NCBI GenBank assembly: GCA_040877935.1 | Contig: JBBDNB010000063.1 | Coordinates: 1-45,892, forward strand | Direction of reading: 5' to 3' | Source: Chitinophagales bacterium | GTDB lineage: Bacteria; Bacteroidota; Bacteroidia; Chitinophagales; CAIOSU01 | DNA length: 45,892 nucleotides | Part shown: positions 167 to 38,749 of the stretch, piece by piece | Numbering within the stretch: position 1 is the first letter of the stretch | How the letters are laid out: each line of letters begins with the position of its first letter | Position numbers and translations under genes: made by a program | Notes under the pieces: model-generated | What the model was told of the DNA's origin: nothing | The model's input: only the letters and a program-made list of their open reading frames with translations | Databases searched by the model: none

Positions 167-3100
167 ATGAAAAAATTCTACCTACCCTTTCTACTTATTG
201 TAATTGCGCTTACCGGTCTGAATCTTGACATTCAAGCTCAATGCTACAGCGATGACCCTTCGCTTTATGATATTGACGGTAGTCTTTTCGTCAACCCAAG
301 TGGGTGCGGTAGTGCCACTGTAGAGATACCTCCCACAATGTGTATCCGAATTACAGTGCCTCCTCAAGGTGCCTATTACGATTTTACATACTACGAAGAA
401 AGCTATGATGGGGGAGATCCAGTTTCTGGGGGTTTTTGTATCGATGATGGTTCTGGTCAAACCTATTTTTCTGGCTTACTGCCTACACCAGGAAAATATA
501 TTGACTTCAGCAGCGATTTATTATGCATAAAACCCAACAGAAATTTTAACCGGAATTGGAGTAATAATATTACGTCAGCCGTGCTTACCTATAATAAAAC
601 TCAACCAACAGGAGGTACAGTAACTGCTAATCCTACTTCATCCTGTGAAGGTGGCGATGTTGTTTTCACAGCTTCGGGATTTAATTATGGTTTTTTTAAA
701 CAATTTCAATATAGATGGAATGGGACAGGAAGTTGGAATAACTGGTCTACTAATAGCCCTCACACCTGGGAGTCACACAATACTTCCGGCAATTCCCTGC
801 AAGTTAGAGCCGTTATTGATAACGATGGATGTATAGCTTACTCTTCTCCTGTAACACATTATATTTATGATGACCCAACTGTTACGGTAAGCGGAAATGA
901 CCACTCTGTATGTCTTGGGCATACAGGCAGCTTTACAGCAAATGGCAGTGGAGGTATAGGTGCTACTGAAAGCTATCAGTGGATTAGAAGAGTAAATGGT
1001 GGTTCTGTGGTTAACTTAGGAACCAGTGCTACACAAAACATCACTTTTAATAGTACTGGTACCTGGGAAATAGCTGTTTTTTATGAAACAAGCGGGGAAG
1101 GCTGCGATGGTATTGTATCCCCAACCAGAACTATTACAGTTGTAGGCGACCCAGCTGAATTAAGTGATGCTGTTTTTTCTACATCAAGCATTTGTACCGG
1201 TGGAAATACCTCTGTAAACTCCGAACTGACAGGTGGTACCGGAACAGAAACACCTGACTGGCAGTATTTTAACGGCAGTAATTGGGTGAATATCAGTAAT
1301 GGTACACCCGCTGAGTTCTCATACACTGGTCTTAATACTTCTACTTTATCAATTACTACTACCGGTAATGTAGCCTTAGGCAATTATGATTTCAGAAGAA
1401 AATTAAATTCAACAGTAGGATGCAATACTACAAGTAATTATGCCACTTTAACTATTGTAGCCGATCCTTCTATATCTATATTAGGTCAGGGTACTACTGA
1501 ATGTGTAGATGCAACTAGTGGAACTACATTGTATGTAAACACTAATACTGGCGGAGGAGGAAGCTGTAGCATTCAGTGGCAGAAGAGTACTATAGGTTCA
1601 GGTGCCGGTTTCAGCAATGTTCCCGGAGCTACAAGTACATCTCTTGCTACCGGTGCTATTACCCAGGATTCCTGGTATCGGGTTCAAAGGAGCTGTACTG
1701 GCAGCGGTTGTACAAATGCAGTTTCAGGAGTAATTGAATTATCCCCAGCACCTGGTTTGCCTGCTGTTTTAGACACAACTTTTGGTTGTGGGAATACTAC
1801 AATAAATATTTCTCCAGACCCTGACTATGCCAATACAGCCAGGGTATATTCTGACCAAAGTTTAAGTAATTTATTATATACTGGTGTTGCTTACCAGACA
1901 GATGTATCTGGAGATTATTACATAACCTCTTACAATTCAAATTCAGGTTGTGAAAGTAGTGACTCAGCTGTTTATCTCAGTTCCTCACCAGCTTTTGCTA
2001 CAAGTTTCATAAAAAGTTCAGTAAATAATCCACATGGCTATGATGTGATTTGTCACGATGGAGACAATGCTTTTATTCAATACATGGAGCCTTCTGATTA
2101 TGATCAGTATTTATACAACTGGTCAAATGGTGAAGCTGGTATAGGCTTATATTTTCTATATCCATTGTCTCCCGGACAATATTCTGTTACAGTTTCAGAC
2201 ACCTCTGGAAATTGTTCTGTTGTAGATAATTTTGAGATTACTGAACCACCTGCTATTACATTTGATCCTCCTGTGATTGATGAAATTGACTGTTATGGAG
2301 GCACAGGCTCAATCAGTGTTAATGCAAATAATGTATATGGTGATTTATACGGAGGTAGTGTCACTTATATTTGGAGTAATGGAAACACGGGCTCCACACA
2401 AAGCGGATTATTAGCAGGAGGATATACTGTAACCGTTCAAGATGATTGGTATGGTAACAGGTGTACAGCATCTACTTCTTATACACTATCCCAACCAGAC
2501 TCAATAAAACTATCTCTTATTACTTCATATCCATGTAATACTTCCGGATTGTACGATCAGGGTGTTGTTACTATACTTGCAGATGGTGGAACTCCGCCCT
2601 ATGAATACAAAAAAGGAACGAGTGGAACATATTCTTCCACAAATGTTTATGGTAACCTGCTCGACAACACTTCATACACTTTTTATGTACGAGATGCCAA
2701 TGGATGTGAAAAATCACAAACAGTAGATATAGACTTCCCCTTACAAGGAGAAGCACTTGGGGTATGTGAATTTGTTTATGTAAGTGCCACCGGTGAAGGC
2801 CCGCTCGGAACATTAGAGTGCCCTACTGATCTAATCACAGGGATAAATATTGCTGAAGCAAGTTCAAACAGAAAAAGAATTCTTTTACTTGCCGGAAATT
2901 ATACAATTACAGAAACAGTTGAAATCCCCAATAATGTAAGTCTGGATGGTTCTTTTGAAAATATGGGAGATTACTGGAGAAAAAACACAGGACTTACAAG
3001 CACTTTAAACATTAATCCCCCTGAAGAAACAGCTCAAACAGATATTGCCCATAAGATGGGTATAAAAGCACATAACATAAGCAATTTCTCTATTAAAGAT

Positions 3101-5500
3101 TTAACTGTAAATGTTAGTGGCGTATCAAACAATAGCAGAACCAGTAATGGATATGGCAAATCAGTATATGGTCTTCATATCTCGGGCGCAAGTGATTATA
3201 CAATAACCCGTGTAGAAGTAAATACAGGAAATGCTTCAAGTGGAGCAAATGGAGCTCCGGGAGTTTCTCAAGGACAGTCAACAAATGGAAATAGAGGTGA
3301 AAATGGTGGTACTTGCTGGGACTTATTTGGTTGTACAGCCAATGGTGGTAGTGGTGGAAATGGTGGAGGATCAGGCTTCTTCGGTAAAGGAGGCAATGGG
3401 GGTAAAGGTGGTTATGGCAAAATGTGGAGTGGGAATAATAGCAGTGGAAGTCCGGGCGGTACTCCAACCGGAGGATCACCTGGAGCTCCGGGCGGACTTG
3501 GATCATCAATTCCCGGTTCAGGACTTCCTTCAACAGGAGGCGGACCAGGAGGTGATGGTGGAAGTGCCGGGGCATCAGGCTCCGGAACAAGTGGATACGA
3601 TGAGCTTTTTGGAGGTAGTTGTGATTATCCTAATAGTCAACCTAATGTTGTAAATGGAACAGCAGGAACTTCCGGCACAGACGGAGGCAAAGGAGATAAT
3701 GGATTTGATGGAAATTTTGTAGGAAACTACTTCTTCCCCGGTTCTGAAGGTGGCCGCGGTGGCCAGGGAGGCCAGGGCGGTGGCGGTGGAGGTGCCGGTG
3801 GAGGTGGCGGCCAAGGATCCACCTTTGGTGAAGCCAGTGGTGGCGGTGGCGGTGGCGGTGGCGGCCAGGGCGGCTTTGGTGCCTTTGGCGGCTACGGAGG
3901 TAAAGGCGGTGGTTCATCCATCGGCATTTACCTAAACAATAGCAACTCGGGACAGAATATTTCCCATATAGAAGTAAATCCCGGAAATCCAGGATCAGGT
4001 GGTGTTGGTGGCCCTGGGGGTACTGGGGGAGAAGGTGGTTCTGGCGGTGTCAGAGGTAGTGGAAACTGCGAAGCAAAAGATGGTGGCTATGGCGGAAAAG
4101 GCGGAGACGGTGGCAATGGCGGCTATGGTGGTGATGGAAAAACCGGTTTTGCTTATGAAGTATATACCGTTGGTTCGGGTAATTCAACCGGTACAACAAT
4201 ACCTTCTAGAACTGTAACCGTATATCAAAATCAAGGATGTGAGAATTCAGAAGTACTGCTTACCAGATCAGGTACAGGTAACTGGGATTTCCTTGGAAAT
4301 GCAGGTTTTGTGAATAATGAAACTGCAGGATCAAGCACATACAGCAATTCTGATGATACAGTAAAAGTAACCTACACAAGTACCGGAAAATACAATGTTC
4401 AAATAGGTACTGATATTTACAGCGAGCTGGTAGAAATTTCCGGATCAAGAAGCTTGCCTGAAATAGACATAGATACCATTCCTGATAATACTGAAATATG
4501 TACTCAAAATGCTGAAACACCAACAGAGTTAATATTCGAAACTTCTTCAGCTCTTGAGTATAGGTGGTCAGTTCAAAGATTGATTTCAGGAACTCCTCAG
4601 GATCCACCTGTGTTGACATCCGATCAAAAATCAACTCCTGCTTACCAACCAAGTCAGGTTGGACATTATCAGGTTAAATTGAGTGTCTTAGATGAATGTT
4701 GTGGTTGGTCTATTCCGGTTTACAGAACTTTTGAAGTTAAAGAAGAACCATCTACACCCGGGTTTATTAATAACCCGGCTACTCCAGTTTGTGAATATTC
4801 CTATGGTGTACCCTATCAAGTAGCACCTATTTCAGGAGTAAATGATTACATATGGACAATTCCTCAGGGAGCAAACATAGTAAGTGGTGATGGCACAGAT
4901 TCCATAACTGTTGATTTTGATATTTATGGTGGAGACATTTCTGTTCAAGCAGCTAATGGCTGCGGTAGTTCTACCGTAACAAGCCATACTGTTGCTACAA
5001 ATGCCTCACCTTTTGTTGAGATTGAAGGAGATTTTGTACTATGTAATGAAGACACAACAGTACTTACAGCGATAGCAAGCAGGGGAACAGAAAACTATTC
5101 ATACGAATGGAGTACTGGCTCAACTGATTCTTTCTTAATTGTTGTTTCAGATACTAACGCTTATAATACTGCTACTTATAGCGTAACTGTTAGCGATGGA
5201 TCAGATTGTAATCATTTTGACGTAGTTAATATTATTTTCACTTATCCTACAACATATGTATGGACAGGTGCCGTTAGCGAAGACTGGCACAATCCAGGTA
5301 ACTGGAACTGCAAAGTACCAGACAAGACAACCAATGTAATCATTCCTGATGTTACATTAGGTTCTGGCAATTACCCTACTGTTTATGAAAATGGAGTGAA
5401 CATGAGTGATGGTACAGGTTATTGTAAAACAATTCAAATAAATGATGCTGCAAGCTTAACCATTAAAAATGCAGCTACATTAAAAGTAAGCGAGCCATAA
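167..5500 (+). CDS. Giant secreted SprB-repeat/Ig-like/glycine-rich surface protein
   Basis: This 1777-residue protein starts with a clear signal peptide (residues 1-25, cut after AQ-type end IQAQ), so it is exported. Residues about 150-620 hold Ig-like modules, each opening with a Cys (SSCEGGDVVF, HSVCLGHTGSF, SSICTGGNTS). Residues about 625-860 resemble SprB-type repeats (IDCYGGTGSISV, YIWSNGNTGS). Residues about 875-1020 look like a parallel beta-helix start, followed by a glycine-rich stretch (about 1022-1335) and further Ig/PKD-like modules. The last 80 residues match the WTG..dW.nP.NW module that often precedes a T9SS sorting domain, but no sorting domain follows: the gene ends at tandem TAA TAA stops. 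Role is inferred as a surface adhesin or matrix protein; no enzyme motif is seen. It is monocistronic and convergent with aroK. I could not identify a convincing promoter in bases 1-166. Confidence 0.85.
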   Translation: MKKFYLPFLLIVIALTGLNLDIQAQCYSDDPSLYDIDGSLFVNPSGCGSATVEIPPTMCIRITVPPQGAYYDFTYYEESYDGGDPVSGGFCIDDGSGQTYFSGLLPTPGKYIDFSSDLLCIKPNRNFNRNWSNNITSAVLTYNKTQPTGGTVTANPTSSCEGGDVVFTASGFNYGFFKQFQYRWNGTGSWNNWSTNSPHTWESHNTSGNSLQVRAVIDNDGCIAYSSPVTHYIYDDPTVTVSGNDHSVCLGHTGSFTANGSGGIGATESYQWIRRVNGGSVVNLGTSATQNITFNSTGTWEIAVFYETSGEGCDGIVSPTRTITVVGDPAELSDAVFSTSSICTGGNTSVNSELTGGTGTETPDWQYFNGSNWVNISNGTPAEFSYTGLNTSTLSITTTGNVALGNYDFRRKLNSTVGCNTTSNYATLTIVADPSISILGQGTTECVDATSGTTLYVNTNTGGGGSCSIQWQKSTIGSGAGFSNVPGATSTSLATGAITQDSWYRVQRSCTGSGCTNAVSGVIELSPAPGLPAVLDTTFGCGNTTINISPDPDYANTARVYSDQSLSNLLYTGVAYQTDVSGDYYITSYNSNSGCESSDSAVYLSSSPAFATSFIKSSVNNPHGYDVICHDGDNAFIQYMEPSDYDQYLYNWSNGEAGIGLYFLYPLSPGQYSVTVSDTSGNCSVVDNFEITEPPAITFDPPVIDEIDCYGGTGSISVNANNVYGDLYGGSVTYIWSNGNTGSTQSGLLAGGYTVTVQDDWYGNRCTASTSYTLSQPDSIKLSLITSYPCNTSGLYDQGVVTILADGGTPPYEYKKGTSGTYSSTNVYGNLLDNTSYTFYVRDANGCEKSQTVDIDFPLQGEALGVCEFVYVSATGEGPLGTLECPTDLITGINIAEASSNRKRILLLAGNYTITETVEIPNNVSLDGSFENMGDYWRKNTGLTSTLNINPPEETAQTDIAHKMGIKAHNISNFSIKDLTVNVSGVSNNSRTSNGYGKSVYGLHISGASDYTITRVEVNTGNASSGANGAPGVSQGQSTNGNRGENGGTCWDLFGCTANGGSGGNGGGSGFFGKGGNGGKGGYGKMWSGNNSSGSPGGTPTGGSPGAPGGLGSSIPGSGLPSTGGGPGGDGGSAGASGSGTSGYDELFGGSCDYPNSQPNVVNGTAGTSGTDGGKGDNGFDGNFVGNYFFPGSEGGRGGQGGQGGGGGGAGGGGGQGSTFGEASGGGGGGGGGQGGFGAFGGYGGKGGGSSIGIYLNNSNSGQNISHIEVNPGNPGSGGVGGPGGTGGEGGSGGVRGSGNCEAKDGGYGGKGGDGGNGGYGGDGKTGFAYEVYTVGSGNSTGTTIPSRTVTVYQNQGCENSEVLLTRSGTGNWDFLGNAGFVNNETAGSSTYSNSDDTVKVTYTSTGKYNVQIGTDIYSELVEISGSRSLPEIDIDTIPDNTEICTQNAETPTELIFETSSALEYRWSVQRLISGTPQDPPVLTSDQKSTPAYQPSQVGHYQVKLSVLDECCGWSIPVYRTFEVKEEPSTPGFINNPATPVCEYSYGVPYQVAPISGVNDYIWTIPQGANIVSGDGTDSITVDFDIYGGDISVQAANGCGSSTVTSHTVATNASPFVEIEGDFVLCNEDTTVLTAIASRGTENYSYEWSTGSTDSFLIVVSDTNAYNTATYSVTVSDGSDCNHFDVVNIIFTYPTTYVWTGAVSEDWHNPGNWNCKVPDKTTNVIIPDVTLGSGNYPTVYENGVNMSDGTGYCKTIQINDAASLTIKNAATLKVSEP
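3231..4160 (+). repeat. Glycine-rich low-complexity coding segment
   Basis: This part of the giant surface-protein gene (residues about 1022-1335) is built of imperfect GGTGGC/GGAGGT-type units encoding GGxGG, GNGG and GxGG runs. Its GC content is visibly higher than the flanks. It sits between two stretches of similar beta-helix-like sequence (VYGLHISGASDYTITRVEV before, IGIYLNNSNSGQNISHIEV after), so it may be one or more long loops inserted in a beta-helix. The repeats make all six frames look open here, but only the + frame fits the surrounding gene. Confidence 0.85.
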
Positions 5501-5507
5501 TAATTCT

Positions 5508-6035
5508 CTATTCATTAAAATCTGCCCAAGCTTCAAGGAGTTTGGGCAGATTTTTTTTAGGTGGTGTTTGACCAATATTTATTACTATATCTGCCTGCTC
5601 GAAAAATATTTTTCGATTCTCATATATTGATTTAAGGTGATTATCAAATTCCTGTGGGGTTTTGCCTTGAAGCAAAGGACGTTTTGTTTTGCTTTTATTC
5701 AAGCGATCTGAAATGACCTTAAGTGAAGTACGTATATATATACTAAAAGCGTGTTGCTTAATTAGACTCATATTATCATAGAAAACAGGAGTACCACCTC
5801 CCAGTGCAATAACTGCGGGTGTGGTTTTTAAAAGTGCTGCTAATACATCGCGTTCTTTTTGCCTGAAAAAATCTTCGCCCTGATTTTTAAATATTTCAGG
5901 TATGCTTTGTCCGCTTATTTTTTCTATTTCTTTATCCAGATCATAAAATGGCAGCTGCAATTCTTTAGACAATTGCCTTCCCAATGTAGTCTTGCCCACA
6001 CCGGGCATTCCCATTAGGCAAATGTGTTTATTCAT
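5508..6035 (-). CDS. aroK: Shikimate kinase
   Basis: Cytoplasmic kinase that phosphorylates shikimate to shikimate-3-phosphate with ATP, the fifth step of chorismate and aromatic amino-acid synthesis. The 175-residue product has usual family length. Visible motifs are the Walker A loop GMPGVGKTT (residues 9-17), the shikimate-binding DLD (32-34), FFRQKE with Arg58, the glycine triplet at 79-81, and the lid arginine in TKRPLL (Arg119). It lies 42 bases downstream of the racemase-family gene on the same strand and may be co-transcribed with it, although no metabolic link is obvious. Its last codons contain the shared terminator hairpin. Identification is secure; whether it is AroK or the AroL paralogue cannot be decided. 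Confidence 0.96.
   Translation of the reverse strand: MNKHICLMGMPGVGKTTLGRQLSKELQLPFYDLDKEIEKISGQSIPEIFKNQGEDFFRQKERDVLAALLKTTPAVIALGGGTPVFYDNMSLIKQHAFSIYIRTSLKVISDRLNKSKTKRPLLQGKTPQEFDNHLKSIYENRKIFFEQADIVINIGQTPPKKNLPKLLEAWADFNE
5517..5558. terminator. Bidirectional intrinsic terminator inside the aroK 3' end
   Basis: An A4-TCTGCCCAA arm (5517-5529) pairs with TTGGGCAGA-T4 (5542-5554), giving 13 Watson-Crick pairs around a short loop. It is followed by further T residues on the + strand (to 5558) and by TTTTAAT on the - strand. It should end transcription of the surface-protein gene arriving from the left and also serve aroK arriving from the right. The hairpin is part of the aroK coding sequence (codons about 160 to the end), so the aroK C-terminus is constrained by it. 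Confidence 0.85.
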
Positions 6036-6077
6036 CGGGTTTAATGCTTGAGGTATCTATATTATAACAAAATAGAT

Positions 6078-7163
6078 TTAATCAATGTCTTCCTTAACCA
6101 TATATTTATCGATATAGTCTGAGTTAAAGAGTCTGAGTGCGCCCATATATTTTAATCGGAAAGATATCAGATCCCCCACTTTATAATTGGATTCGTTTTC
6201 TCCGATATCAATAACAAGCATATCAGAGCTAGCTCCTACCAATTCAATATTTGAATCATCAGGAAGTATAAAATCAGGTGCCATATCCAACAATCCGAGA
6301 TCTAGGATTGCCCTATAAGAAGTCTTCCCGTAATCCGACTCATCGATTTCATGCCTTTCGCCTGAGGGATTTTCTTCTAATGTACCCATAGGTACTTTGG
6401 GTTTTTCTGTGATTTCAATGATTTCAGCAAATAGTTTGAAAACATCTTGCTCCATACCTTCTATTGGTTCATCTGTTACCAGGTCATTTCCGAAAAAAAG
6501 TGTTTCTCCTACTCTATAATGATTGATTCCAGCAGGCAATTGTTTCTTCAGAAGCATTGGAATAACTACTGAAGTCCCTCCTGTCACCCAATTGATCTTT
6601 TTTTGAAATTTAGCTTCAATCAGTTGTTCGTATAAGCTCAATTGGATCAGCTTATCAGGTGAGGGCATTACACCGTACAGGCAATTCAGATTAGTGCCAA
6701 TGCCCGTTACTTCAATATTGGGCAGCTCAAAAATTGACTGGTAAAAATCCATTAAATGATCCCCCATAATTCCTTCACGCAAATCCCCCATTTCGATCAT
6801 AATAATCACCTTATGGGTTTTGTTTTGCCGTTTGGCTTCTTCTGATAATAATTTTATGGTTCTGTATTCTGTATTAAAACTGGCATCTGCATAGCGAACC
6901 AAATCCTCTACACTTCGTTTTGCAGGGGGTTTAATATAAACGGTTTGCACAGAAGAATCCAGCTTTTTCACTGTTTTCAAATTACTGATACGTGCATCGC
7001 ATATCTCTTTAATCCCGAGATTGATTACTTCCTGAATATAGTCTTCATTGCCGCACAATAATTTTGTGACAGCTGCCCACTCTATATTATTCTCTTTAAA
7101 AAGCGTATTGAGAAAACTATAATTTTTCCTCAATTTGTTTCTATACATTTTTACAAATGCCAT
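6078..7163 (-). CDS. Ornithine/alanine racemase family PLP-dependent enzyme
   Basis: Fold-type III PLP enzyme of the alanine/ornithine racemase (Orr-like) family, 361 residues. Family hallmarks are visible in order: AVTKLLCG with the presumed PLP lysine Lys34, MGDLREG, GIGTNLNC, the phosphate-binding GGTSVVIP, NHYRVGETLFFG, and a C-terminal GASSDMLVID. Characterised relatives interconvert L- and D-ornithine or related amino acids; the substrate here is not readable from sequence. It follows a separate alanine-racemase-like gene in the same direction after a 145-base gap that holds a possible promoter and an inverted repeat, so it may be transcribed both with the cluster and alone. Confidence in the family is high, in the substrate low. 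Confidence 0.88.
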   Translation of the reverse strand: MAFVKMYRNKLRKNYSFLNTLFKENNIEWAAVTKLLCGNEDYIQEVINLGIKEICDARISNLKTVKKLDSSVQTVYIKPPAKRSVEDLVRYADASFNTEYRTIKLLSEEAKRQNKTHKVIIMIEMGDLREGIMGDHLMDFYQSIFELPNIEVTGIGTNLNCLYGVMPSPDKLIQLSLYEQLIEAKFQKKINWVTGGTSVVIPMLLKKQLPAGINHYRVGETLFFGNDLVTDEPIEGMEQDVFKLFAEIIEITEKPKVPMGTLEENPSGERHEIDESDYGKTSYRAILDLGLLDMAPDFILPDDSNIELVGASSDMLVIDIGENESNYKVGDLISFRLKYMGALRLFNSDYIDKYMVKEDID

Positions 7164-7181
7164 AATCTGTCTTTTATTTAA

Positions 7182-7204
7182 ACCAAATCATATATCGGTT
7201 TGGT
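7182..7204. promoter_or_regulatory. Inverted repeat just upstream of the ornithine-racemase-family gene
   Basis: ACCAAA (7182-7187) and TTTGGT (7199-7204) form 6-base arms around an AT-rich centre including ATATAT. It lies about 20 bases before the start codon, a position suited to an operator or a 5' UTR hairpin. No regulator can be named from sequence. Confidence 0.3.
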
Positions 7205-7240
7205 AATCATTTTTTTTGAAAGCAGTTAAAACTCATTTTT

Positions 7241-7248
7241 CAAATTTA
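7241..7248 (-). promoter_or_regulatory. Possible -7 promoter element for the racemase-family gene
   Basis: On the - strand this reads TAAATTTG, a full match to the Bacteroidota -7 consensus TAnnTTTG, about 78 bases upstream of the start codon at 7163. No clear TTTG element is present at the expected upstream distance, so the call is tentative. Confidence 0.4.
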
Positions 7249-7308
7249 CAAATAAATAATAACTGTATTATTTTAACAGGAAAACCAAAGGTGAAATTCA
7301 CAGTTGAT

Positions 7309-8457
7309 TTATTCTAATATTCTAGGAATATCGCTGGGGAGTCGGGTTAGCAATTCATAATTCACCTGAGCACTGATCTCAGAAAATGAAGCAATACTGA
7401 TCGTTTGATTGCCCTGCTCACCAATTAATACAACCTCATCTCCTACTTTTAAATTTTCAAGATCATTTACATTCAATGCCAAACAATTCATATTCACCAT
7501 ACCAATAACAGGAACCCGCTGTCCGCCAACCAGTGCACGCCCCTGATTGCTCAGGCTGCGCGTAAATCCATGTGCATAGCCAATAGGTACAATCGCTATG
7601 GTCATGTCTTTAAGTGCCAAATAAGAAGATCCATAACCAACGTATTCTCCCATATCTACTTTTTTAAACGACATGATTGTGGATTTCCAGGAAAGCAATC
7701 TTTTAAGTGGGCTTTCTTTGAATTTTTTATCCTTCAGGTACTCAATAAATATTTCTTTGCTTGGCCACAAGCCAAACTGCATAATACCTATACGCACAAG
7801 ATCAAGGTGCATTTCAGGAAAGCGAACAGCTGCGGCACTACAGCATGTATGATGAAACTCAGGTTTTAACCCTGCTGACTCCGCTATACTTTTAAATTCA
7901 TAGAAACACCTTTTTTGCTCAGTAATGCGCACAAAATTTGCGATGTTCTCAGCTCCTGCAAAATGTGTGCACAAGCCTTGAAAGTATAGATATTCTTTTT
8001 GCTTTTTTAAAATATCAAGGGCAATATCAAACTCATGTACTTCAAGCCCAGTACGATTCATTCCTGTTTCTACTTCCAAATGAATCAAGGCTTTCTTATT
8101 CAGCATTTTGGCAATTTCCAATGTTTTGTTGAGGCGCTCAATACTGAAAATATAAAACGAGACCCCTTCTTCGATAGCCCAATAAAGTGCTTCATCACTC
8201 ATATAGCCCATAATCATAACATCGGCCATATCTTGTGTGATCATCTTTACGCGATAAGCTTCATCTGCATTATAAACTGAAAAATGATTCACATCATTCT
8301 CCAATGCAAGCGCTACAAAAGCTTCCAACCCATGCCCATATGCATTTCCCTTTACAACAGAAGAGAAACGCACATTTTTATCAATCAGGCTTCTAATAAA
8401 TTTTAAATTGTGCGCCAATGCGTCTTTATCTATAGATATAATTGAAGAACTAAACAT
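7309..8457 (-). CDS. alr: Alanine racemase family protein with altered active-site positions
   Basis: Fold-type III PLP racemase, 382 residues, with the two-domain Alr layout. The PLP lysine is Lys36 in VVKGNAYGHG, Arg222 (VRIGI) sits at the pyridine-nitrogen contact, and Tyr275 in VGYG corresponds to the second catalytic base. Several usually conserved positions differ: the carbamylated-lysine site of TGM-R motifs is Glu128 (HLEVETGMNR), GYADGY is GYAHGF (293-298), and the VxMDQ motif is VNMNC (321-325). Its ATG overlaps the stop of the amidohydrolase gene (TAATG), implying coupled translation. In Bacteroidota the cell-wall alanine racemase is usually fused to MurF, so this stand-alone copy may have another job, such as racemising a different amino acid. 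The product name is the family name; the substrate is unproven. Confidence 0.85.
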   Translation of the reverse strand: MFSSSIISIDKDALAHNLKFIRSLIDKNVRFSSVVKGNAYGHGLEAFVALALENDVNHFSVYNADEAYRVKMITQDMADVMIMGYMSDEALYWAIEEGVSFYIFSIERLNKTLEIAKMLNKKALIHLEVETGMNRTGLEVHEFDIALDILKKQKEYLYFQGLCTHFAGAENIANFVRITEQKRCFYEFKSIAESAGLKPEFHHTCCSAAAVRFPEMHLDLVRIGIMQFGLWPSKEIFIEYLKDKKFKESPLKRLLSWKSTIMSFKKVDMGEYVGYGSSYLALKDMTIAIVPIGYAHGFTRSLSNQGRALVGGQRVPVIGMVNMNCLALNVNDLENLKVGDEVVLIGEQGNQTISIASFSEISAQVNYELLTRLPSDIPRILE

Positions 8458-9587
8458 TAGCTTTGGATTGTTTTCCTTATTTCGTTAAAAAGACTCGCTC
8501 CGGTTTCAATCAATTCATCCGGAAAATCATAATCGGGATTGTGCAGGGCAGGCATATCTTCACCAGCGCCCAAGCCAAACATTGCTCCTTTAAAATTTTG
8601 TGTAAATAAGCCAAAATCCTCTCCCCATTTAAAAGGATATTCACGGTGGTGATATTCCAAGTCCAATTTCTCAATGGCTTCGCAAATATAATCCACTGCA
8701 TCGTAATTATTTTCAGTAGAGGCAAATACTTCCGCCCATTCATACTCAAGCTCTACTTCCGCATTCTTACATGCTTTTTCAACATATTTCAGTAAATCAT
8801 TTCCCAATTTATTCATAGCCTGCTGTTTCCAGGCACGCAAAGTTAAATGCAATTCACCGTATCCGGCTGAAATACCATAAGCCAAATCTCCCAAATTGGC
8901 ATAAACGGGAGTGATCAACTGAAATTCATCAGACATAGGGTCGTTGTGGGTCAGTTTACTGGATTTTTTAATGATGTCGGCTATCACCATAGCGGGATTG
9001 ATGCCGTTTTCCGGTTCTGCTGCATGGGCAGTTATTCCATGAAATTTTAGCACCAAAGTTTTTACTGCCGCTGTAAAACCTCTTTTTCTTACAATAACCT
9101 GACGAAAGGGAAACCCCGGTAAATTGTGCAGTGCAAAAATAAAATCGGGATAGTATCTTTTGAATTCCTCTGATTCCATCACCGCTTTTGCTCCCAGCCC
9201 ATTTTCCTCTGCCGGCTGAAAAATCAACATCACTTTTCCAGTCTGGGGTTTTTCTTTTTGAAGCTTTAGTGCCAATCCACAAAGAATAGTACTGTGTCCA
9301 TCGTGTCCACACATATGAGAAACACCTTCTACCTGAGAGTGGTAATGAAAATCATTGCATTCCTGAATGGGCAAGGCGTCCAATTCGGCTCTGAATAGAA
9401 TATTTTTCCCTTCATTACCAGAATCGAAAATGGCCAAAAGTGCTGTGCCTGCAAATTCTACAAATTCAGCATCGGTATGGGTTTCCAGGAAAGATTTTAT
9501 TTTTTTTCGCGTTTGGGTTTCGTGGCACGAAATTTCAGGAAAGGCATGTAGGCTATGCCTCAGCTCTATCAATTTATCCTGAGACAT
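8457..9587 (-). CDS. M20D family amidohydrolase (N-acyl amino acid/peptide hydrolase)
   Basis: Dinuclear-metal hydrolase of the M20D branch (hippurate, indole-acetyl-amino-acid and N-acyl-amino-acid hydrolases), 376 residues, likely cytoplasmic because no signal peptide is present. Metal-site motifs are HMCGHDGH (residues 91-98, with Cys93 typical of M20D), the general base pair in FQPAEENG (Glu127/128), LHNLPG in the middle, and LHNPDYDFPD near the C-terminus. It should release a free amino acid from an N-acyl or amide precursor. It starts 3 bases after the GNAT gene and overlaps alr, so it belongs to the symporter-GNAT-amidohydrolase-racemase operon and probably supplies the racemase substrate. 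The exact substrate cannot be read from sequence. Confidence 0.9.
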   Translation of the reverse strand: MSQDKLIELRHSLHAFPEISCHETQTRKKIKSFLETHTDAEFVEFAGTALLAIFDSGNEGKNILFRAELDALPIQECNDFHYHSQVEGVSHMCGHDGHSTILCGLALKLQKEKPQTGKVMLIFQPAEENGLGAKAVMESEEFKRYYPDFIFALHNLPGFPFRQVIVRKRGFTAAVKTLVLKFHGITAHAAEPENGINPAMVIADIIKKSSKLTHNDPMSDEFQLITPVYANLGDLAYGISAGYGELHLTLRAWKQQAMNKLGNDLLKYVEKACKNAEVELEYEWAEVFASTENNYDAVDYICEAIEKLDLEYHHREYPFKWGEDFGLFTQNFKGAMFGLGAGEDMPALHNPDYDFPDELIETGASLFNEIRKTIQS

Positions 9588-9590
9588 TGC

Positions 9591-10070
9591 TTATTTCTTT
9601 TGGTAGCGCATTTCCAAATATTTATTGGTAAAGCCCATCTTTTCATAAAGAAATTTCGCAGGATTATCAGGCTCTACATGTAGTGCTACTGCACCTTTTG
9701 CACGTCTCAGAGCTGTTTCCATAAGGCGTTTGCCAATTCCCTGTCCACGATAATCAGAATTTACAGCGATATACACTAAAATATTCTCAGGTATATATCC
9801 ACTCATTCCAGTTTCGTTAATCACCACTACTCCAATGATTTCATCATCATCCAAACCCAATACAATAAATCCACCTTTCATTTCATGCTTTTTAAAAGCA
9901 TAATTTACAGCTCTTAAAATATCTTCTTTCTTATCACCATATTGATCTAAGTGATCATAAAGAAATTGAGCTATCTTGTTATTAGTGTAGAGTATGTCAG
10001 TTCCCGTAAAGGAATCGAGCACTTTTTCTTTGTAGTTTACTTTTTTGGTCATTTTTTCAGTTGAATTCAT
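9591..10070 (-). CDS. GNAT family N-acetyltransferase
   Basis: Single-domain acetyl-CoA-dependent acetyltransferase of 159 residues. The CoA pyrophosphate-binding motif A is clear (RGQGIGKRL, residues 108-116, after the beta-4 strand ILVYIAVNSDY), and motif B follows (PAKFLYEKMGF), as in amino-group acetylases such as RimI. It lies 4 bases downstream of the symporter and 3 bases upstream of the amidohydrolase, a spacing that implies one transcript. An acetylase beside a deacylase suggests that acylated amino acids are handled by this operon, but that is inference; the acceptor is unknown. Confidence 0.85.
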   Translation of the reverse strand: MNSTEKMTKKVNYKEKVLDSFTGTDILYTNNKIAQFLYDHLDQYGDKKEDILRAVNYAFKKHEMKGGFIVLGLDDDEIIGVVVINETGMSGYIPENILVYIAVNSDYRGQGIGKRLMETALRRAKGAVALHVEPDNPAKFLYEKMGFTNKYLEMRYQKK

Positions 10071-10074
10071 TTTA

Positions 10075-11508
10075 TCAATTTACTAATTTTTCAGGAATTA
10101 ATTTATAAACAAGAGCGAAGATTAATGCAGAAGCTGAAATCCCGAAGATATTGGGATCAAGCTCCAAGGGTAAATCTACTCCACTCACCTGTAAAGCCAG
10201 CGTTGTGCCACCACCTACAAGCATTGCTGCCAATGCGGCATTGGAATTGTTCTTTTTTAATATCAATACAGAAAGAACAGGCACAAGTAAGCCCGAAACC
10301 ATAAAGGCATAGGACATCAGCATAAGCTCCAGCACATTGGTCATTGTTGCGGCCAGAATTAAAGCCAGGGTTCCAATTGCAAGTGTAACCCATTGCGACA
10401 AACGCAATAAACGCTCTTCTTTAATAGGCATAATTTTAGCCATCAGGTCTGAAACAAAATTACCGGAGGAAGCCATCAAACAACTATCGGCAGTAGAAAG
10501 TATGGCCGAAAAATAGGCCGCCATCATAATGCCGGTAAGCCCTGGTGGCAAAATAGTCCTCAACAATAAGGGCAGTCCCATCTCTGCATCTATATTATCA
10601 ATGTTTGTGTAGCCTAAATGTTCAAATAAACCTATGTCTAATGCAACGCGAGCAAACATCCCGAGTGTTACACCCATAAATGCCATCAATGGCCATTCAA
10701 AAACACCTGCTATATACCAGGCTTTTTGTGCATCTTTCACACTTCTACACGCATATATACGCTGATACAAAGTCATGCCCACAAACCAAATGGGAATAAT
10801 GGTCACCGCCCAATTGACCAATTGCGACCAACTCACATTCGTAATGCTCAACAATTCCGGCTGTACAGATTGTCTGATAACATGAATGCCGCCCAGTTCG
10901 AAATAAGAGAGCGGAATGCCTATAAAAATCAAACCGCCCAATAATATAGCCCACTGAATGGAATCCGTGAAAATAACGGCTTTCAATCCGCCCATCACCG
11001 TATAGACTACCGCAATCACACCCATTACCACAAGCGCATATTTCAACTCTAATGCGGGAAAAGTAGCTGTGGCCAATTTTGCTCCTGCCAACAATTGTGA
11101 ACTGGTGAATCCCAAGTAACCGATACCTGAAATAATTCCTGCAGCCAATGCCACACGGTGGTCAAAGAAATGATTGAATATTTCAGGAAAAGTTCTCAGC
11201 TTGCCTTCAGCACCGAGTTTATAAATCCTGGGGATTAAAAAAACCGCACTGAGCCAGGCTCCTATTAAGCCAGTAAAAAGCATCCATGAGCCTGCAATGC
11301 CCATAACAAAGCCCAAACCTCCAAGCCCAATCGAAAACCCTCCTCCTACATCTGTAGCAACTACAGAAATACCCACATGCCATTTGCTCATGTTGCGGCC
11401 TCCTACATAATAATCATCAGCATCTTTGTTCTTACGCAGGAAATAGTAACCAATTCCGAGCATTCCCACCAAGTAAACAATAAATATGATGATATCAATG
11501 GGATGCAT
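10075..11508 (-). CDS. Sodium:solute symporter (SSS family)
   Basis: Inner-membrane transporter of 477 residues with roughly 13 hydrophobic segments. Family features include the N-terminal DDYYVGGRNM segment between helices 1 and 2, a glycine-rich second helix (TDVGGGFSIGLGGLG), and the SSS signature region GGLKAVIFTDSIQ. Such proteins couple sodium influx to uptake of amino acids, sugars, carboxylates or other small solutes; substrate cannot be assigned. It is the first gene of the leftward cluster, behind a well-formed promoter at 11620-11649, and is followed at 4 bases by a GNAT gene and then an amidohydrolase and racemase. The context suggests uptake of an amino acid or N-acylated derivative. 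Confidence 0.92.
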   Translation of the reverse strand: MHPIDIIIFIVYLVGMLGIGYYFLRKNKDADDYYVGGRNMSKWHVGISVVATDVGGGFSIGLGGLGFVMGIAGSWMLFTGLIGAWLSAVFLIPRIYKLGAEGKLRTFPEIFNHFFDHRVALAAGIISGIGYLGFTSSQLLAGAKLATATFPALELKYALVVMGVIAVVYTVMGGLKAVIFTDSIQWAILLGGLIFIGIPLSYFELGGIHVIRQSVQPELLSITNVSWSQLVNWAVTIIPIWFVGMTLYQRIYACRSVKDAQKAWYIAGVFEWPLMAFMGVTLGMFARVALDIGLFEHLGYTNIDNIDAEMGLPLLLRTILPPGLTGIMMAAYFSAILSTADSCLMASSGNFVSDLMAKIMPIKEERLLRLSQWVTLAIGTLALILAATMTNVLELMLMSYAFMVSGLLVPVLSVLILKKNNSNAALAAMLVGGGTTLALQVSGVDLPLELDPNIFGISASALIFALVYKLIPEKLVN

Positions 11509-11619
11509 TAGCCTTCTGTTTTATTTTCTTTCGAAAAATTAAGAAGCAATATATACAGGGTATTTTCAGGTTTTGTATAGCAGATACTGAGGCTCTTTTT
11601 GGATCAATTCATTGTATTG

Positions 11620-11649
11620 CAAAGATAAGGGCTAAAAGTTAATTACAAA
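11620..11649 (-). promoter_or_regulatory. Promoter of the symporter-racemase cluster
   Basis: On the - strand TTTG (11646-11649) is followed after 18 bases by TATCTTTG (11620-11627), a full match to the Bacteroidota TTTG/TAnnTTTG promoter. Transcription would start near 11613, leaving a leader of about 105 bases before the symporter ATG. The rest of the 262-base gap to pssA shows no gene. Confidence 0.7.
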
Positions 11650-11770
11650 AAAGTAAGGAAAGTACTATTTATTGTATTATGATGCAATGTGTTTTTAAAT
11701 AATAAGCAGCATGTATAAATATCAATTCTGAATTTATCATCTGTGATTGGCTAAAAACCAAGCTTCCCCG

Positions 11771-12547
11771 TTATTGCTTAACCACTCCCCTACTAAAAAC
11801 CTTATAATGCAACAAGGACATCAAAACATACAGAAGTAAAATAAGCGGAACTGCTACAAAACCAATTGTAGCAAGCAATAGCAAACTAATAATCAGAAAA
11901 CTAATTTTCAGCTCATTACCCTTCCAGCTAAACCCTTCAAATTTTAAAGCAAAGAGCGGTAAGTCCAACACCATCAATACTGAAAGAAAAATACTCAGAG
12001 CAATTATAATTTGTGGTTGAAAAAAAAGTACCGTCATATCGTATTGGAACCTTTCATACAACCAACTAAGCAGCCAGTTCTGGTCAGAATAATGTATACT
12101 CAAAGGGATTGAAATCCAAAAAAGCGCATGCGCAGGACTTGCAAGTCCATAAAAACAATGGCTCTGTCTGTCGTCATGATTGAATTTAGCAAGTCGGAAA
12201 GCTGTAAACATTACCGCAATAAATGGAATGTATTGCAAATAGAGCCACGGATCAAACTCTTCAGCAAATTCACCCAAACTGATAAGCAATAATTTATGTG
12301 CTAAAAATGCAGGAGCCAATCCAAAAGTAATCATATCAGCTAATGAATCCAGGTCTTTACCAACAGGAGAATTCACCTTCAATGCCCGTGCAGCAAGCCC
12401 ATCAAAAAAATCAAAAAAAGCCCCAAGTGCTATAAAATAGGCTCCAACTAATAGTTTTCCATTGGCTATATACAATACAGCAAGTGCTCCGCTGAATGCA
12501 TTGAGCAAAGTTATTGCATTGGGAATAAATCTGATCACTGCAGTCAT
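11771..12547 (-). CDS. pssA: CDP-diacylglycerol--serine O-phosphatidyltransferase
   Basis: Integral membrane CDP-alcohol phosphotransferase that joins serine to CDP-diacylglycerol, giving phosphatidylserine, the precursor of phosphatidylethanolamine. The catalytic signature DGxxAR-x8-G-x3-D-x3-D is complete (Asp49, Arg54, Gly63, Asp67, Asp71 counting from the ATG), with several hydrophobic helices around it. I place the start at the ATG ending at 12545-12547 rather than the TTG one codon earlier; this ATG overlaps the pepP stop (TGATG), a typical coupled arrangement. Length of 258 residues suits the Bacillus-type PssA family. Serine rather than glycerol-phosphate as acceptor is inferred from overall similarity and is fairly likely. 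Confidence 0.88.
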   Translation of the reverse strand: MTAVIRFIPNAITLLNAFSGALAVLYIANGKLLVGAYFIALGAFFDFFDGLAARALKVNSPVGKDLDSLADMITFGLAPAFLAHKLLLISLGEFAEEFDPWLYLQYIPFIAVMFTAFRLAKFNHDDRQSHCFYGLASPAHALFWISIPLSIHYSDQNWLLSWLYERFQYDMTVLFFQPQIIIALSIFLSVLMVLDLPLFALKFEGFSWKGNELKISFLIISLLLLATIGFVAVPLILLLYVLMSLLHYKVFSRGVVKQ

Positions 12548-13836
12548 CAACTGTTCATTAAATGCTCAATTTCTTCAACTTCGCGCGGAATATCCCCCAT
12601 CAGATCAACCGGATCACCATCTGTTACCAAAATATCATTTTCTATACGGACACCGATATTTTCCTTGGGAATATAAATGCCAGGCTCACAGGTAAATACC
12701 ATTCCAGGCTTCATCACCTCGTACCTATTGCCAATATCGTGCACATCCAACCCCATATAGTGAGCTGTTCCGTGAGGAAAATACTTTTTATAAGCAGGCA
12801 CATCAGGATTTTGCTCATCTATATCCTTCTGGCTGAGCAAACCCAGTTGAACCAACTCTTTTTCCATTATCAGGCCTACCTCTTTATTATAGTCATTTAG
12901 AGTAATTCCCGGACGCAGCATTGATGTTGCTTCTTTCATTACCCGCAATGTGGCATTATAAACATCCTTTTGCCTGTCGGTAAATTTACCGTTTACAGGA
13001 ATAGTCCGGGTCATATCAGATGCGTAATTGGCATATTCACAGCCAAAGTCCATCAATAACAGATCACCATCCTTACACGCTTTATTATTGTCATTATAAT
13101 GCAAAATACAAGCCGCCTCTCCAGAAGCTACAATTGGATGATAGGCATAGCCAGTTGCACGATTGCATAAAAACTCATGTAAAATTTCTGCTTCTACTTC
13201 ATATTCCATCACTCCCGGCTTCATAAATTTAAGCACACGTTCAAAAGCATTACCCGTAATTTCACATGCTTTGGAAAGCAACCCAACTTCAATTTCAGAT
13301 TTAATACATCGTAAATTGCCCACAATTGGTGCAATACGTTCGTATTTGTGCAGGGGAAATCTGGCTTTTACTTTATTTGCAAATCTCAAATCTTTATAGG
13401 GTACTTCAGTAGCTGCCCTGTCATTTTCATTCAAGTTTAAATACAAATGCTCAGCAAAAGGAACCAACATATTAAATATAGCATCAAAATCATCATTCCA
13501 GATAACTGTTTTAATACCGGAATATTCCTTAGCCTTTTCTTTAGTAAACTTTTCACCTTCCCATACCTTAATCTTTTCATTTGTCTCTTTAATAAAGAGT
13601 ACTTCGCGGTATTTTTCCACTGGTGCATCGGGAAACAATAATAAAATCGTATCTTCCTGATCTATGCCAGAGAGATAAAAAAGGTCGGAATTCTGTCTAA
13701 ACTTATATGTATTATCTCCATTGCGCGGCATTATGTCGTTTGAGTGTAATACAGCCAGGGATTTACTTTTCAACTGATTTCTAAAGTTATTCCGGTTGTT
13801 TACAAAAAGTCCAGACTTTATTTTAGGATACTTCAC
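12547..13836 (-). CDS. pepP: Aminopeptidase P family protein (Xaa-Pro aminopeptidase)
   Basis: Manganese-dependent M24B peptidase that removes an N-terminal residue preceding proline. The 429-residue product has the aminopeptidase P N-terminal domain (about 1-165) and a pita-bread catalytic domain. All five metal ligands are visible: Asp263 (LLMDFG), Asp274 (ASDMTRT), His355 (FPHGTAH), Glu384 (CEPGIY) and Glu399 (VRIENDI). No signal peptide is present, so it is cytoplasmic. It is divergent from rpsL, with a 164-base shared control region, and its stop codon overlaps the pssA start, indicating a two-gene operon. Confidence 0.95.
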   Translation of the reverse strand: MKYPKIKSGLFVNNRNNFRNQLKSKSLAVLHSNDIMPRNGDNTYKFRQNSDLFYLSGIDQEDTILLLFPDAPVEKYREVLFIKETNEKIKVWEGEKFTKEKAKEYSGIKTVIWNDDFDAIFNMLVPFAEHLYLNLNENDRAATEVPYKDLRFANKVKARFPLHKYERIAPIVGNLRCIKSEIEVGLLSKACEITGNAFERVLKFMKPGVMEYEVEAEILHEFLCNRATGYAYHPIVASGEAACILHYNDNNKACKDGDLLLMDFGCEYANYASDMTRTIPVNGKFTDRQKDVYNATLRVMKEATSMLRPGITLNDYNKEVGLIMEKELVQLGLLSQKDIDEQNPDVPAYKKYFPHGTAHYMGLDVHDIGNRYEVMKPGMVFTCEPGIYIPKENIGVRIENDILVTDGDPVDLMGDIPREVEEIEHLMNS

Positions 13837-37720: not shown

Positions 37721-38749
37721 TCACAACCTCGGACAGGGCACTCGTAATTTGCTCAATGTTGAAGGCCTTAGCCCCAGGTACACCATTGAAATTTCAAAGC
37801 CCCCTACTCCATAGCTGACTTCCCGCAACTTGGATAAATTCACATCGTAATTGGCTATCAGTTTAAACCGCTTGTACTGATAACCAGCTTGGGGAACCAG
37901 CGCATCCTTTGTGCGGTAAGCAGCACCTATAAAAAATACACTCTCCCGCAAAAAACCATCTGCCTGCGGATGAAAACCCATTAAAAGAGAAGCCACTCCT
38001 TCCTGCGCCTTTTTCTGATAGGAATAGAAAAAACCCGGCTCTATGTGCAATGATCTGCTAATTTGGTAATCCACACCTGCATGAATGGCCGGGCGCATTC
38101 CCAACCTGTTGGCCATGCCATAAAAACTCTCTCGCGGTCGGTTGAGATGGGTCATTCCCAAACCTATGTGGGTACTTAAATATTCATTTACCCTAATTGT
38201 AAGTCGCAGCCCAGCATTAAGATCAGGATAAATAATGGCTTCAGTTGCATTGGCTTCCTGGTTGGGCAGATCGGTATCAAAAGCAATGTCCTGCCACTGC
38301 GAATCAAAATACAGAGCAGTATAATCTATACGCTTTTGAATAAACCTGATTCCCACTCCCATAGAGAGAATTACCTGATCGTTATGCCCCATAACTTTAT
38401 GATAAGCAAACGAAAGCCCGGCTTTATTGACAGAAAGATTGCCATCTCCTGCATTGTCGTTGAAAAAGACCAGCCCCATTCCCATCCAGTCTTTTGAGGG
38501 TAGTTTTTTTCGCAGCATAGCCATATCCCCATACACCGATAATGAGCGGTAATTCGACATGCGATTGTCCCTGGCCCAGGGCCACTGCTGTTTGAAATTG
38601 CCCCCTACCCTATAATCTTCCTGGAAAAAACCGGTATGCGCAGGATTCAATTGCAATGGTGCGGCATAAAACTGTGTGAAATGCAGATCCTGTGCCTGCA
38701 AAAGACAGGCACTCATTATAAAAAACAATATGATCAAATAGCGTCTCAT
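37721..38749 (-). CDS. PorP/SprF family type IX secretion outer-membrane protein
   Basis: The 342-residue protein has a signal peptide (ending CLLQAQ) and the PorP/SprF opening DLHFTQFYAAPLQLNPAHTGFF, followed by beta-barrel-like strands and the typical end GGFEISMVY...CPRL. Family members interact with a cognate large surface protein and are needed for its export or anchoring by the T9SS, as SprF is for SprB. It overlaps the upstream 1685-residue surface-protein gene by 4 bases (ATGA), which fits a dedicated partner pair. The family call is firm; which substrate it serves is inferred from linkage. Confidence 0.93.
   Translation of the reverse strand: MRRYLIILFFIMSACLLQAQDLHFTQFYAAPLQLNPAHTGFFQEDYRVGGNFKQQWPWARDNRMSNYRSLSVYGDMAMLRKKLPSKDWMGMGLVFFNDNAGDGNLSVNKAGLSFAYHKVMGHNDQVILSMGVGIRFIQKRIDYTALYFDSQWQDIAFDTDLPNQEANATEAIIYPDLNAGLRLTIRVNEYLSTHIGLGMTHLNRPRESFYGMANRLGMRPAIHAGVDYQISRSLHIEPGFFYSYQKKAQEGVASLLMGFHPQADGFLRESVFFIGAAYRTKDALVPQAGYQYKRFKLIANYDVNLSKLREVSYGVGGFEISMVYLGLRPSTLSKLRVPCPRL

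Follow-up and report, generated by a model that had tools for sequence, protein, structure and literature searches.

What could bring a sodium:solute symporter, an acetyltransferase, an amidohydrolase and two racemases together in one bacterial locus? The question is raised by five genes on the minus strand of contig JBBDNB010000063.1 of a Chitinophagales bacterium (phylum Bacteroidota; GenBank assembly GCA_040877935.1), of which positions 1 to 45,892, called the window here, were analysed. The list of open reading frames (ORFs) of the window confirms an SSS-family symporter, a GNAT acetyltransferase, an M20D amidohydrolase, an alanine-racemase-like protein (Alr) and an ornithine-racemase-like protein (Orr), the latter two being fold-type III racemases dependent on pyridoxal 5'-phosphate (PLP). 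A sequence-only reading had proposed that the set might import an amino acid, deacylate and racemise it, or run in reverse. The five genes are a conserved unit, and their grouping goes far beyond chance. Their enzyme families are familiar, the conserved combination is undescribed, and both racemases belong to divergent clades. As judged from the sequences, the set probably forms an undescribed route for the use of D-amino acids.

A conserved set across Bacteroidota

An initial M20D search gave hits in 9 of 119 genomes, the genome of the window counted. Orr was detected in 49 of 395 genomes of a class sample (E<=1e-60) and in 42 of 296 genomes of a phylum sample (E<=1e-40), both again including our own. 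Gene neighbourhoods around 47 of the remaining 48 class hits (G288 left out) and around another 20 phylum hits (12 of the 42 left out), together with L018, L024, L028, L029 and one Persicobacter record, make up 72 Orr contexts; a contig scan with a single protein as query gives one locus. Chained to Orr by gaps <1200 bp, GNAT was found in 69 contexts, SSS in 53, M20 in 37, Alr in 35 and all five genes in 29, which are lower bounds since some contigs end early and M20 and Alr lie past an M23-like gene, outside the chain, in L132, L135 and L141. The order of the window, SSS-GNAT-M20-Alr-Orr, occurred 18 times and is that of L018, L024 and L028, followed by SSS-GNAT-Orr and GNAT-Orr (11 each), GNAT-SSS-Orr (6), SSS-GNAT-Orr-M20-Alr and GNAT-M20-Alr-Orr (4 each), GNAT-Orr-SSS-M20-Alr and GNAT-SSS-M20-Alr-Orr (3 each) and others, while L029 has SSS-GNAT-Orr-(M23-like)-M20. 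Of the three contexts without a chained GNAT, L149 carries it two genes upstream, L150 holds a cluster of the OraE type and L080 has no GNAT. An amino-acid permease gene adjoins Orr in two loci without a chained SSS, encoded on the Orr strand in L090 and opposite to it in L091. The sequence-only reading had named a lack of conservation outside close relatives as the outcome that would speak against it; instead, the genes recur in the class and the phylum sample in rearranged orders, and a shared function is therefore well supported.

The co-occurrence that the same reading had asked to see extends beyond linkage. Among the 394 genomes of the class sample other than our own, 48 carry Orr, 52 carry GNAT and 47 carry both (Fisher p=6e-54, uncorrected for ancestry). 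The five genomes with GNAT and no Orr call comprise two in which Orr is cut at a contig end (G467, G202), one whose contig stops inside Alr (G395) and two with a lone GNAT (G163, G211); G236 is the only genome with Orr and no GNAT. M20 (E<=1e-75) was found in 43 genomes, 36 of them with Orr (p=1e-33, uncorrected for ancestry), or 37 if G467 is counted. It is linked to Alr in 35 of the 37 genomes with Orr, G242 and G378 being the exceptions, versus none of the 6 genomes without Orr, where no Orr appears even at E<=1e-20 (p=5e-6, a hand tally uncorrected for ancestry). Of these 35 links, 24 lie inside the Orr cluster (counting G388, with other genes intervening) and 11 elsewhere. As forecast, the M20-Alr pairs of G006 and G034, which have no adjoining Orr, go with an Orr located on a different contig, in a GNAT-Orr and a GNAT-SSS-Orr arrangement, respectively. 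Neither an Alr neighbour of M20 nor an Orr was found in G045 and G080; G020 has no Orr either, in a genome that is 57% complete and with M20 close to a contig end, and G018 has Orr and M20 in a cluster from which Alr is absent. GNAT and Orr are the core of the set, SSS is the usual putative importer, and M20D and Alr are an accessory pair that accompanies the core.

Further copies and one odd record were met along the way. Our own genome has a second M20-Alr pair away from Orr on contig C28 (L019:7940-10257), next to a gene that resembles thiamine-pyrophosphate enzymes (named by eye), and Persicobacter sp. JZB09 has a second GNAT-Orr pair (CP012861.1, L189:31349-33202) on the replicon that carries its five-gene cluster. 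L018 belongs to a metagenome-assembled genome labelled Ignavibacteriae with the cluster order usual in the window's class, which a wrong label or a transfer may explain.

The proteins and their relatives

The Alr of the window keeps K39, R136, H166, R219, Y265 and Y354 and is changed at positions 129, 203, 311 and 313. We compared 47 Alr sequences, namely 45 that are M20-linked or in a cluster, a paralogue on contig C21 of our own genome and the MurF-Alr-type protein of its contig C60. Only the C60 protein has all of Lys129, Asn203, Cys311 and Asp313. The other 46 carry Glu (39), His (4), Gln (2) or Asp (1) at 129, Cys, Ser or Gly at 203, Asn at 311 and Asn or Ser at 313. Eight further Alrs fit this pattern, except L214 with Thr at 311, and two solved alanine racemases align with CMDQ at 311-314. 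Tyr354 is kept throughout the aligned M20-linked Alrs (that of L072 is in two pieces and outside the alignment). By these residues, the M20-linked Alrs are a divergent clade with four active-site changes relative to the housekeeping enzyme, while catalytic Lys and Tyr are kept. With alanine racemases (Alr, DadX, MurF-Alr) the window protein shares a TIGR00492 score over the cut-off, catalytic Lys and Tyr, R136, H166, R219 and Tyr354, whereas its clade has Lys129, Asn203, Cys311 and Asp313 replaced and is tied to M20D. The MurF-Alr-type housekeeping gene, whose 846-residue frame points to a fusion, lies on C60, separate from the cluster.

Lyr, Bar and the VanT serine racemase are likewise fold-type III PLP racemases, and Lyr aligns with Asn at position 313. 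In place of Tyr354, Lyr and Bar have Thr or Ala and VanT has Asn (PMC3485190). A Lyr/Bar-type or VanT-type specificity is not favoured for the window Alr, which differs from all three in keeping this Tyr. The C21 protein (L020:8652-9809), a third standalone Alr of our genome, has Asn at this position, the residue reported for VanT, and is perhaps a serine racemase. On contig C4 (L021:6030-8962), a gene resembling neutral ceramidases overlaps one with a domain of the alanine-racemase N-terminal type.

The sequence-only reading had placed a second fold-type III racemase-family enzyme next in line, and the Orr-like gene does follow after 145 bp. Since its product scores 334 bits, below the cut-off of 480 for the ornithine racemase model NF040742, "Orr-like" is the right word. 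It is 38% identical to Orr of the ornithine aminomutase pathway (Acetoanaerobium noterae), a member of the same family with which Lys34, Arg129, Glu130, Asn158, Cys161, Arg217 and Tyr339 are invariant; Lys34 is invariant in 15 aligned Orr sequences and likewise in 77. All 70 GNAT-linked Orrs, the window included, have Lys78, Pro79 and Asp288, and position 315 is Met in 65, Ile in 3 and Val in 2. The Orrs of L080 and L149 also carry Lys78, Pro79, Asp288 and Met315. Five Orr relatives found elsewhere differ at these positions, with Arg at 78, a residue other than Pro at 79, Ala or Asn at 288 and His at 315; two of them adjoin OraE, a third adjoins DUF1611, a fourth shares its cluster with D-amino acid dehydrogenase and 5-guanidino-2-oxopentanoate decarboxylase, and the fifth is from Photobacterium. 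The GNAT-linked Orrs thus stand apart as a divergent clade by sequence signature (K78, P79, D288, M315) and are without the His of column 315. A changed pocket is plausible, as a weak profile alignment sets this column beside Met312 and Asp313 of alanine racemase. A sequence search at E<=1e-5 turned up no solved structure related to the Orr-like protein, and a profile of 15 Orrs matches lysine racemase (4dza, E=4e-5); two-sequence alignments yielded AlphaFold models of a quality too low for use (mean predicted local distance difference test scores of 37.4 and 54.5).

The setting differs as well. OraE, which accompanies the racemase in the ornithine pathway, is never a neighbour of Orr in the 69 contexts with a chained GNAT, and among all 72 it lies near Orr in L150 only. 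Ornithine fermentation was rejected as a role, as OraE is absent from our genome while the positive control G619 was detected. Synthesis of meso-diaminopimelate is unlikely too, with a separate DapF gene present. Orr-family genes were also seen in other company: one is overlapped by a DUF1611 gene on the Vibrio europaeus plasmid NZ_CP064859.1 (L153:4784-7068), and one in Roseateles sp. XES5 (NZ_CP084753.1, L154:1-8113) stands beside genes for D-amino acid dehydrogenase, RidA and 5-guanidino-2-oxopentanoate decarboxylase, which suggests arginine racemisation at that locus.

For the symporter, the best named model is PutP (TIGR02121), reached with 154 of the 515.5 bits needed. The GNAT has 36 invariant columns across 14 relatives, including NxTxMxxYIP and ILVYIA. 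A GNAT domain in Acetoanaerobium noterae (NZ_CP154629.1, L188:7447-8724), fused to a threonine-synthase-like PALP domain, is 36% identical to it over 118 residues and, by its domains, provides another case in which this GNAT is combined with a PLP amino-acid enzyme. The nearest solved sequence to M20D is YxeP (1ysj), and the CGHDxH, PAEE, HN and final H motifs, which we take to be metal ligands, are aligned. Ectoine degradation was rejected, as M20D reaches 176.5 of 550 bits for DoeB2 (NF038260) and the PepP encoded upstream 57 of 575 bits for the DoeA exception model.

A putative route for D-amino acids and its rivals

We give about an even chance to the reading that the cluster is a Bacteroidota module for the uptake and stereoinversion of D-amino acids, be they free, N-acylated or derived from small D-containing peptides. 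The protein families point to a role in amino-acid racemisation. The SSS symporter would import amino acids together with sodium, and the two PLP racemases would turn the D- into the L-forms of two different amino acids. GNAT might acetylate an amino group, which would keep a D-isomer from cell-wall synthesis or pull the reaction one way, and M20D might remove an acyl group or split a small conjugate. In the simplest scheme, the free D-amino acid would be racemised to L after import, GNAT would act on one of the enantiomers or on a further amino group, and M20D would release an amino acid from its acylated or small-peptide form. PLP racemase chemistry requires a free amine, so that one amine would not be acetylated and racemised at once. 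We infer the import and D-to-L directions, the substrates, the acetylation target of GNAT and the order of the steps. Of the import, deacylation and racemisation first proposed, a shared function stands through conservation and a racemising role through the protein families, whereas the Orr-like protein departs from classical ornithine racemases and has no OraE beside it.

Several points weigh against a D-amino-acid module. M20 at the threshold used is missing from 12 of the 48 genomes with Orr, the M20-Alr pair is outside the chain in about half of the 72 contexts and SSS in 19 of them. The co-occurrence statistics ignore ancestry, and the Alr residues are contrasted with few sequences. Alr passes TIGR00492 and, its altered residues notwithstanding, could be a plain alanine racemase. 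The target of GNAT is hard to place, given the need of the racemases for a free amine.

Known systems resemble parts of the scheme. DgcN, which we take to be the DUF1611 family, acylates and DgcA epimerises, and a DUF1611 protein adjoins an Orr relative in Vibrio. However, DgcN and DgcA belong to other protein families than the enzymes of the cluster, and DUF1611 is absent among the Pfam hits of the cluster proteins here. For D-glutamate and related D-amino acids, the system is described as a racemisation route that is irreversible and costs energy (PMC12363236), and it is taken here as an analogue in mechanism (PMC12363236, PMC10845958). The yxe/scm pathway of Bacillus subtilis breaks down S-(2-succino)cysteine by acetylation, transformation and deacetylation with an M20 deacetylase (PMC9706529, PMC12757645), and it likewise clusters a transporter, an N-acetyltransferase and an M20-family deacetylase, YxeP. 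By analogy, this logic counts for the D-amino-acid module. Yet yxe/scm has, in the text available, an ABC transporter, a monooxygenase or lyase and no racemase, whereas our cluster has an SSS symporter and two racemases; of YxeK, L, MNO, P and Q, at least three of which define the system (PMC9706529), only acetyltransferase and M20 deacetylase are matched, by broad family. A literature search over titles and abstract openings, with part of the queries too strict to tell much, found no description of the set, in agreement with the view that it has no named pathway; a paper on RacX lists an "ornithine racemase" among predicted genes of a Flavobacteriales strain, not itself studied in the available text (PMC12838360). 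More tentatively, and rather unlikely in our view, a dedicated GNAT subfamily with a new Orr clade and a second new racemase clade with M20D might make up a phylum-wide pathway, independent of DgcN-DgcA, in which acetylation and deacylation render stereoinversion one-way.

Among other explanations, cytosolic recycling of peptidoglycan peptides seems unlikely, albeit the least so: M20D, joined in some genomes by an M23-like protein, would split D-Ala peptides, Alr would convert D-Ala and the Orr-like enzyme would handle the diamino acid. An M23-type gene does occur in 12 contexts (L029, L103, L131-L137, L139-L141), mostly between Orr and M20, although the calls in L139 and L141 rest on N-termini. 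Six of these proteins tested are PF01551, H66, D70, H120, H156 and H158 are invariant in ten that were aligned, no signal peptide was evident by eye (no predictor was used), and Alr keeps Tyr354 as alanine-specific enzymes do. However, the window cluster has no M23 gene and our genome no close copy (best E=7e-4), GNAT is left without a clear role, and SSS proteins transport small molecules rather than peptides. Still less probable is production of D-amino acids, with the racemases running from L to D for the cell wall or release and GNAT and M20D serving storage or control. Racemases are reversible and the MurF-Alr-type and DapF genes lie outside the module, but the importer is within the set in 53 of 72 contexts, and no exporter, ligase or transpeptidase family recurs among the neighbours examined, part of which were tested against Pfam.

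We rate lower again a yxe/scm-like salvage of amino acids carrying an N-acetyl or other modification, where the PLP enzymes would catalyse side reactions different from the D/L inversion of common amino acids. It draws on YxeP, the nearest solved M20D relative, being described in the available text as an N-acetylcysteine deacetylase with an acetyltransferase and a transporter, yet neither a monooxygenase nor a lyase is a recurrent neighbour of the set, and the two racemase-family genes would be unexplained. The 145 bp ahead of Orr in the window and the many Orr clusters without M20-Alr would suit unrelated housekeeping genes adjacent by chance, an account that we regard as next to impossible given that the set recurs across the phylum in shuffled orders and that its genes co-occur even when unlinked. 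A D-amino-acid module would matter beyond this locus. Bacteroidota are important degraders of slowly degraded marine organic matter. D-amino acids, largely from bacterial cell walls, belong to this matter according to the literature excerpts available, and a conserved five-gene set with a dedicated acetyltransferase and two divergent racemase clades is a testable candidate route for them. If so, many proteins of the phylum automatically named "alanine racemase" or "ornithine racemase" would have other activities.

Layout and surroundings of the locus

The tight spacing described for the first four genes is borne out by the ORF coordinates, with 4 bp between SSS and GNAT, 3 bp between GNAT and M20D and an overlap of 1 bp between M20D and Alr. 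The "one good promoter" claimed ahead of them did not hold up as such, the evidence being weak: a match to the consensus that we assume for Bacteroidota lies ~110 bp ahead of SSS, but the window as a whole holds 4 such matches with 3.6 expected, and a sigma-70-type scan is at chance level as well (31 found, 28.0 expected).

Features of the locus in window coordinates, with supporting scores
Feature	Position	Strand	Support
SSS-family sodium:solute symporter gene	10075..11508	-	PF00474, 159 bits (family matched)
GNAT acetyltransferase gene, conserved subfamily	9591..10070	-	PF00583 (family matched)
M20D amidohydrolase gene	8457..9587	-	TIGR01891, 204 bits (cut-off 153.75)
Alr-like fold-type III PLP racemase gene	7309..8457	-	TIGR00492 alr, 271 bits (cut-off 168)
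Orr-like fold-type III PLP racemase gene	6078..7163	-	racem_Orr NF040742, 334 bits (cut-off 480)
Possible Bacteroidota-type promoter	11620..11649	-	TTTG-N18-TATCTTTG; weak, pattern at chance frequency in window
Inverted repeat within the Alr-Orr gap	7182..7204	.	+ strand terminator scan

No Rfam match to an RNA regulator was found within 5000-12600. The cluster is flanked by a shikimate kinase gene downstream and by pssA- and pepP-like genes upstream; PssA and PepP are absent from the 72 other Orr contexts (E<=1e-8) and AroK occurs in one (L079). Farther out, the window holds two very long ORFs, at 167-5500 (1777 residues) and 38746-43803 (1685 residues), the first with a glycine-rich stretch.

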